Assembly: GCA_016187935.1 (NCBI GenBank)
Contig: JACPIU010000017.1
Coordinates: forward strand, 1-64,000
Source: Bdellovibrio sp.
GTDB taxonomy: Bacteria > Bdellovibrionota > Bacteriovoracia > Bacteriovoracales > Bacteriovoracaceae
Direction: 5' to 3'
Length of the DNA stretch: 64,000 nucleotides
Both the position numbers and the translations under genes were made by a program. Below, in pieces: positions 12,073 to 13,708 of this stretch. Positions within the stretch are counted from its first letter, which is position 1. Each line of letters begins with the position of its first letter. The notes beneath the pieces were generated by a model. It was given only the letters and a program-made list of their open reading frames with translations, searched no databases and was not told the DNA's origin.

Positions 12073-12078
12073 ATACCA

Positions 12079-12315
12079 TTACACCAATTCAGACTTGCAT
12101 CCACCGACTTTTGGACGACAAGACTTTCTTACCAGGGACTTTGCCGGACGCAAGGAGTCGGGAGTAGACAAACTGCGTCCCATTATCGGGATTGTACGCA
12201 GATTGAAATCCTCGGTACTCAAAATTGGTCCGGATGCTGTTTCAGCACACGCATCATGATTCGTGAGAATTGATTGCTCCTGAAATTCTTTGGGAACTTT
12301 CTGTTTTAGATTCAT
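12079..12315 (-). CDS. Orphan 78-aa protein behind a structured leader
   Basis: The reading frame encodes a 78-aa basic, Ser/Pro-rich protein with three cysteines, no signal peptide and no membrane segment. Support for coding is a GGAG ribosome-binding site 7 nt before the ATG, and a strong promoter candidate (12562-12590) that yields a transcript across it. I do not recognise the family. A caution is that the frame contains a perfect 7-bp inverted repeat (GGACGCA at 12146-12152 and TGCGTCC at 12174-12180). Part or all of this region could therefore be a structured RNA instead of, or as well as, a gene. Confidence 0.5.
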   Translation of the reverse strand: MNLKQKVPKEFQEQSILTNHDACAETASGPILSTEDFNLRTIPIMGRSLSTPDSLRPAKSLVRKSCRPKVGGCKSELV

Positions 12316-12555
12316 GGCCCATCTCCAGTTTTAAAGTTTTGACACTTCATCTTGCTTGCGAAGTGCCTTCATAACCCTTTAACAACCAGATGGTAGGCCA
12401 CCATAACTTAGGTGGGCTTGGTCTTGTAAGTCACTTCACATGCTTAAGTTGTCTGACTTCAATACCTGCCTCCTATTTAAAAACCGACCCTCGTAACACC
12501 TTATCGGTACAACCCTCGGGTCTATTAATGGTTTGACCGGACTCATGTCCAGCGT
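12316..12555 (-). ncRNA. Candidate structured 5' leader RNA (about 240 nt)
   Basis: Read on the minus strand, the predicted transcript starts near 12555 and can form a series of hairpins. These are 12537-12552 (6-bp stem, 4-nt loop, right at the 5' end), 12486-12522 (GACCC/GGGTC with an inner ACC/GGT), 12428-12459 (AAGTCA/TGACTT), 12385-12422 (an 8-position stem with one mismatch inside an outer ACCA/TGGT), and 12341-12367 (8-bp stem with one G-U). The last ends 25 nt before the start codon of the 78-aa frame. I do not recognise a known riboswitch, tmRNA, RNase P or 6S signature. This is the main non-coding gap of the window. Confidence 0.5.
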
Positions 12556-12561
12556 AATTTC

Positions 12562-12590
12562 ATTTTAGCATAGAAGCTTATTTTTCCCAA
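12562..12590 (-). promoter_or_regulatory. Sigma-70-type promoter for the structured leader
   Basis: On the minus strand, TTGGGA (12585-12590) is followed by exactly 17 nt and TAAAAT (12562-12567). Matches to consensus are 4/6 and 5/6 with ideal spacing. It predicts a start near 12555, just before the first hairpin of the leader. Confidence 0.6.
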
Positions 12591-12742
12591 CGGGGGGCGA
12601 AAATATGGCCCCATGGTAGGGATTCTGTCATCATTTTCAAGCTCTTAAGTTGCCAGTGTTGTTGTAAATACTCAAAAGGTGAGGCAAGCTATTATGGATA
12701 ACTCTAAATCAATTTTAAAGATATTTTATTTAGGGGCTTTCT

Positions 12743-13708
12743 ATGTCAAAGTTTATCCTCACCCTCTTGGTGTTGATCAGTTCGTCTTGCGGCCTAGTCC
12801 AGAAGGTCGCCATAAACACCACCGCGGATATGTTATTTGACGCCACTAAGGAAATTGAGACCGAAGGTAATTGGGAGATTTTTAAGGATGGAATACCAGG
12901 CAATTTAAAAATGATGGAGGGGATGGCCTTTATTCAACCTAAAAACAAAAAGCTCCTTGTGGGTCTGGTTAAAGGTTATACAGGCTATGCTTTTGCCATT
13001 ACCGAAACTCTCTACATTCCAGATCAGCTCAAAGATCGTGATTCCAATTTGCGGATTCAACTTATCGCCAACTATACCAAGGCCTTGGATTTTGGCCTGA
13101 GATTTATGGAAGTGAAAGGGGTCAGTTTTGAAGATTTAAAGCAGAAAATAAATGAAGATCAGGGAATCGTAAAATTACTCGATGAAAATTTTGGAGATTC
13201 TACATTAGATTTAGAAGGAGTCCTTTACACCGCTCAAAGCTTGGGTTCACTTATCTTCTTGCAAAAAGATAAGATGAAAATGGTCTCTCTGCTTCCAATT
13301 GTGAAAGGCATGTTTGATTGGATTGCTTTGAAGCGCCCGGATATCAATTATGGCACTTGTGACATTTTCTTTGCCGCTTACGAGGCGGGGCGACCTAAAA
13401 TGTTGGGTGGAAATCCTGCCAAAGGCCAGGCACTCTTCAAGAGCTTAATTAATAAGTATCCTAATAATTGGTTGGCACGCATTGCTTATTTACGGTTCTA
13501 CGTGATCCCTCTGGCGGATGAGGATGAGTTTAAAAAGGAAATGACCTTTTTGAAAAATATGCGTGAGAAATTTTTGGCCCATATTCCTTGGCGTCCCAAA
13601 GATGAACCTGAGCAACCGGAATTTCAGGATAAGGGACTTTTGCTTTATCAAACTATTGCTATAAAACAATTTGAAATGATTCAAAGTGTAGAAAAAGATT
13701 TACTGTAA
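12743..13708 (+). CDS. tatT: TRAP transporter T-component lipoprotein (TatT family)
   Basis: A 321-aa protein with a lipoprotein signal and a lipobox ending at Cys16 (LISSSC). The opening region (NTTADMLFDATKEIETEGNWE), the FIQPKNKKLL segment and the repeated helical pattern fit the TatT family. The family's founding member is the Treponema lipoprotein whose trimer, built of TPR-like helices, docks onto the TRAP solute-binding protein. The position directly before dctP, dctQ and dctM agrees. An AGGGG ribosome-binding site precedes the ATG. It is likely membrane-anchored and facing the periplasm, delivering ligand to the P subunit. Confidence 0.85.
   Translation: MSKFILTLLVLISSSCGLVQKVAINTTADMLFDATKEIETEGNWEIFKDGIPGNLKMMEGMAFIQPKNKKLLVGLVKGYTGYAFAITETLYIPDQLKDRDSNLRIQLIANYTKALDFGLRFMEVKGVSFEDLKQKINEDQGIVKLLDENFGDSTLDLEGVLYTAQSLGSLIFLQKDKMKMVSLLPIVKGMFDWIALKRPDINYGTCDIFFAAYEAGRPKMLGGNPAKGQALFKSLINKYPNNWLARIAYLRFYVIPLADEDEFKKEMTFLKNMREKFLAHIPWRPKDEPEQPEFQDKGLLLYQTIAIKQFEMIQSVEKDLL

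Follow-up and report, generated by a model that had tools for sequence, protein, structure and literature searches.

The window analyzed here is the 64,000-nucleotide stretch that opens contig JACPIU010000017.1 of Bdellovibrio sp., a member of the Bacteriovoracaceae with a genome of 4.4 Mb. Comparisons within the source genus used three sequences, the source genome and two relatives (the genus mates are MAGs). The original prediction had drawn attention to a long gap, and this gap (12073-12742) is real, being flanked by a gene for a secreted protein (+) and by tatT (+). The latter is the divergent neighbor of a small-protein gene and served as our synteny anchor. The following features frame the gap.

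12743-13708, plus strand: tatT, lipoprotein gene of the TRAP operon (TRAP transporter T-component), PF16811 with E 9.1e-28
12562-12590, minus strand: sigma-70-like promoter TTGGGA-17-TAAAAT with an extended -10 TG, start predicted near 12555
12323-12326, minus strand: Shine-Dalgarno sequence (SD) GGAG of the small-protein gene
12079-12315, minus strand: small-protein gene, 78 aa, start codon 12315-12313, C-terminal SLRPAKSLVRKSCRPK, family-wide and syntenic

The minus-strand promoter is present as predicted, at 12590-12562 with a TG before the -10 element, and its spacing is identical in both genus relatives (genus alignment, n = 3). In the family, the pattern TG.TA...T lies 5' of an upstream ORF (uORF, see below) in 62 of 70 leaders vs. 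8.1 in shuffles. The start codon with a GGAG site that had been read downstream was also found, at 12315-12313 and 12326-12323. We propose that the gap encodes a single minus-strand mRNA, which would consist of the promoter, a structured leader of ~240 nt, and then the 78-aa small-protein gene. At the other end of the gap, on the plus strand, a TTGTAAA box (within GTTGTAAATA..., 12660-12672) lies ~90 nt upstream of tatT. It occurs in 46 of 91 family leaders vs. 5 in shuffles (leaders of L067-L166), is often followed by ...TCTAGGGCAATCT, and might serve the TRAP operon as its promoter or as an operator.

The ORF behind the leader had been taken for an orphan, a description that did not hold. 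When the three genus copies were built into a profile, its matches elsewhere were weak, but one of them (L008) proved syntenic. We searched ~2.5 kb around the tatT start at 100 loci, and the iterated profile detected a small minus-strand ORF in the equivalent position at about 92 loci, in most cases preceded by a plausible SD, which disposes of a protein restricted to the genus. Among matched genomes of the phylum, 41 of 44 belong to the family; the other three matches are marginal, and a spread beyond the family was rejected. One family genome, G065, has two tatT loci (L099 and L101). Both come with a small-protein gene and with a uORF leader, the two leaders being of different subtypes, and the assembly is either mixed or contains a duplication. 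Lys, Arg, and Ser are abundant in the small protein, which has a variable N terminus and a C-terminal motif SLRPx[RK]S...[KR]SL[RK]P, in which two S-L-[RK]-P units are ~11 residues apart. S54, P57, S60, S65, and P68 are invariant in 32 diverse members. It has no match in Pfam, NCBIfam, or PDB, and AlphaFold gave no folded model (pLDDT 62, pTM 0.13). Within the genus, the small ORF shows many synonymous codon changes, all of them after the first 11 codons (12281-12315, minus strand), which are identical at all bases in the three genomes. This suggests that a constraint at the RNA level reaches into the coding region.

We then turned to the leader, for which the original prediction had listed five potential hairpins in a candidate cis-regulatory RNA. 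Its features are as follows, all on the minus strand.

12536-12553: hairpin I, 7 bp, including CUGGAC/GUCCGG (12537-12552), with one compensatory change (UA/CG) and another three that affect one side only
12486-12522: hairpin II, GACCC/GGGUC with inner stems, followed by U5 at 12479-12483, with one compensatory change (AU/GC)
12502-12507: CCGAUA motif (CCGA(U/C)A across the family), ~45 nt 5' of the start codon of the uORF
12469-12474: SD AGGAGG of the uORF, missed in the original prediction
12436-12462: uORF, UUG AAG UCA GAC AAC UUA AGC AUG UGA (MKSDNLSM*), 100% identical in three genomes, also missed in the original prediction
12428-12459: third hairpin, AAGUCA/UGACUU, present
12384-12401: 5' arm of a long helix pairing with the small ORF's ribosome-binding site and start codon (about 12311-12330), in the minimum free energy (MFE) fold of all three genus members and in the consensus fold
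12341-12367: hairpin V, GGCACUUC/GAAGUGUC, 8 bp, present

Four of the five hairpins are thus in place (12537-12552, 12486-12522, 12428-12459, and 12341-12367). The remaining one, at 12385-12422, does not form locally in the best fold, where its bases pair with the SD/AUG region of the small ORF. The source leader has an MFE of -78 vs. -60.4 ± 4.8 in 200 shuffles (z -3.66, no shuffle as good), and the two relatives give z of -3.44 and -5.08. The family mean z is -2.46 (91 leaders, 20 shuffles each), with -1.91 for the reverse strand. Within the genus alignment, the three genomes share a stretch of ~50 nt without a single difference. Compensatory changes, which had been sought in at least two stems, amount to one pair in each of hairpins I and II in only three sequences. 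Helices 4 and 5, which are the switch stems discussed below, are almost invariant in these sequences and hence give no covariation support.

The view that the leader matches no known riboswitch, tmRNA, 6S, or RNase P pattern was upheld, with no Rfam match at gathering score in the window plus 15 relatives and only noise at E values up to 10. Two other identities were discarded: a tmRNA, since that of the genome was found elsewhere, and a dispersed element, since a DNA search found one copy and pattern matches elsewhere look like chance. A ligand- or protein-sensing 5' element around CCGA, working as a riboswitch or through the small basic protein regulating its own synthesis, might control translation of the uORF or the small ORF. 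CCGA occurs in 58 of 70 family leaders vs. 7.0 in shuffles, the compensatory changes sit in hairpins I and II, and the small protein has the Lys/Arg/Ser-rich composition that RNA binders often have. However, Rfam offers no match, and there is no stem common to the family: per-genus alignments show a CCGA/UCGG stem in some genera but not in others, so that no family-wide aptamer-like fold was found. We regard such an element as quite unlikely. In some genera, visual inspection suggested a candidate pseudoknot, in which UUAAG close to the 5' end of the RNA would pair with a CUUAG further downstream.

The most conserved stretch of the leader is the uORF, which makes translation-dependent attenuation likelier than a ligand riboswitch. 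UUG-started uORFs are present in about 70 leaders from 24 genera, and the strongest feature shared by the per-genus alignments is an AGGAG, 5-8 nt, a TTG, and a short frame. Of 66 AGGAG sites located 60-200 nt ahead of the small-protein start, 63 have a TTG at a spacing of 5-8 and the other three carry ATG, vs. a spaced TTG at 11.9% of 419 background sites. The peptides are unrelated between genera (MKSDNLSM in the source genus; elsewhere MKTTxxR-like, M[AT]T[LI]PSK, M[KS]LAL..., MRTSEY..., and others), and no conserved stalling peptide was found among them. Indels are multiples of three in 38 of 62 cases inside uORFs vs. 42 of 254 outside (pairs not independent), and the two uORFs end at the same position in 70 of 100 genus pairs. 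The frame is imperfect in the L129/L133 pair, which has a one-base indel late in the uORF. Comparison of sequences thus establishes the conservation, the uORF, and the protein family, together with the alternative pairings described below, and makes it very likely that the uORF is translated. The original idea of a structured cis-regulatory leader with its own promoter is supported by the folding z-scores and the conserved promoter, except that the leader is not purely noncoding. That there is no RNA element at all, the conservation reflecting DNA sites of two divergent promoters plus chance structure, appears highly improbable. While the frequent TTGTAAA box upstream of tatT would fit, it is near tatT and not part of the leader. 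The leader itself is most conserved at the SD-start codon unit, where the reading frame is largely kept, and it runs into a protein-coding gene.

How might the uORF act on the small ORF? In the source genus, a middle segment is able to pair either with the end of the uORF or with a segment near the main SD (UGUGAAGUG / CACUUCGCA and GGCACUUCG / UGAAGUGUC), which defines four predicted switch segments on the minus strand.

12454-12459: segment 1, AAGUCA, uORF codons 2-4
12428-12440: segment 2, UGUGAAGUGACUU, uORF stop codon and after
12357-12367: segment 3, GGCACUUCGCA
12341-12349: segment 4, UGAAGUGUC, pairing with segment 3 in hairpin V, which is the 3:4 pairing

Overlapping 2:3 and 3:4 pairings reach p 0.01-0.02 against shuffles in all three genus members, and of the 70 leaders tested, 40% contain such a triple with p ≤ 0.05 (5% expected). 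In the predicted ground state, the unpaired fraction of the main SD/AUG is 0.16-0.24 in the three genus members vs. 0.38-0.46 in shuffles, with a family-level trend for hiding (p 0.037). The SD of the uORF is also paired in the source-genus MFE. We next folded the leaders while a simulated ribosome footprint was placed on one uORF codon after another. In the source genus, the main SD and AUG stay hidden except with a ribosome at codons 1-3, where predicted accessibility peaks at 0.44-0.52; the predicted unpaired fraction is 0.40-0.52 with the ribosome on codons 1-2 vs. 0.16-0.24 on later codons, a gain of 0.28-0.36 vs. 0.06-0.07 ± 0.07-0.09 in shuffles. Two of the three genus members have the alternative 2:3 helix in their MFE fold. 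In G002, the MFE with a ribosome on the uORF start keeps the sequestering hairpin, and accessibility is only 0.41.

Across genera, the maximal gain exceeds that of shuffles (p 0.028), with gains of at least 0.2 in 7 of 24 genera vs. 0. The position that frees the SD is the uORF start in the source genus and in most of g60, and the uORF stop in the Halobacteriovorax genus, while in certain other genera accessibility stays the same. A universal rule, that a ribosome at the uORF start opens the site more than one at the stop, was not significant (p 0.34) and was dropped. Since the opening position differs among genera, uORF attenuation would be the common theme in these models, with an exact trigger position that either depends on the genus or is beyond the reach of simple folding. 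The translated uORF could also regulate by another route, such as termination-coupled opening, stalling at the uORF end, or transcription attenuation or Rho termination in the leader, start-codon stalling then playing no special part. Such a route, which we consider possible but not very likely, would fit the Halobacteriovorax genus, where predicted SD accessibility rises from 0.11 to 0.54 with a ribosome at the uORF stop, as well as hairpin II with its U5 and the Rho-dependent termination included in the toiL system (PMC12121999). In the source genus, however, a simulated ribosome on the stop codon changes nothing. Moreover, a terminator scan did not call hairpin II, which precedes the uORF and so could not be under classical control by uORF translation.

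The best explanation, to which we assign about half of our confidence, is a stalling-switched, uORF-controlled translation attenuation of the small protein. A very strong SD would drive the short UUG-started uORF inside the leader. In the ground state, segments 1:2 would be paired and 3:4 would cap the long hairpin over the SD and start codon of the small-protein gene, which would therefore be off. When the uORF is fully translated, with a ribosome over segment 2, the hairpin would stay intact. Ribosomes dwelling on the first uORF codons would instead mask segment 1, leaving segment 2 to pair with segment 3, upon which the hairpin would open and the small protein would be made. The system would thus report slow initiation or early elongation, i.e., translation stress. 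We infer the switching and its direction from thermodynamic folding only. In our estimate, attenuation of the small ORF by the leader is likely, and release by stalling at codons 1-3 in the source genus has slightly less than an even chance.

No earlier description of this leader/small-gene unit in Bacteriovoracaceae was found in the literature searched, which had little coverage of subscription journals and included no preprints. Attenuators of the ermC type have four segments, a switch between 1:2 / 3:4 and 2:3 pairings, and a leader peptide. The leader of the source genus is predicted to share this design but is without a downstream resistance gene or a conserved stalling peptide, and its predicted stall is at the uORF start rather than inside the peptide (for a general statement on ermC-type translation attenuators, see PMC11264731). 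For the toiL uORF, which controls topAI-yjhQ in Escherichia coli, ribosome profiling and reporters have demonstrated stalling at its start codon (PMC12121999). Both systems have a short uORF and a leader hairpin over the downstream ribosome-binding site, which start-codon stalling opens, as is only predicted here. In contrast, toiL belongs to another lineage, its controlled gene is a toxin-antitoxin operon (PMC12121999), and it is the Bacteriovoracaceae unit whose UUG start has been kept in about 24 genera. Comparative genomics has also revealed the odc1 and uORFC motifs, which likewise combine a structured bacterial leader with a conserved uORF, but in other taxa and with other genes, and Bdellovibrio and Bacteriovorax are unmentioned there (PMC8632094).

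Taken together, these findings suggest that a conserved structured leader with a UUG-started uORF probably switches on an undescribed small protein via ribosome stalling. A further, unlikely extension is that the unit is a family-wide sensor of translation initiation, the obligatory UUG uORF and near-perfect SD making initiation the sensed step, and that it controls an intrinsically disordered basic small protein whose target in Bacteriovoracaceae would be the ribosome or nucleic acids. The regulatory unit has two ORFs, a UUG leader peptide and a small protein with the SLRP motif, is found in ~24 genera of a predatory-type family, and neither of its parts matches a catalogued family. It provides a test case for two questions, namely why evolution would fix a weak start codon when the ribosome-binding site ahead of it is very strong, and how translation stress is sensed where no resistance gene is involved, and it offers a near-universal lineage gene to research on bacterial predators.
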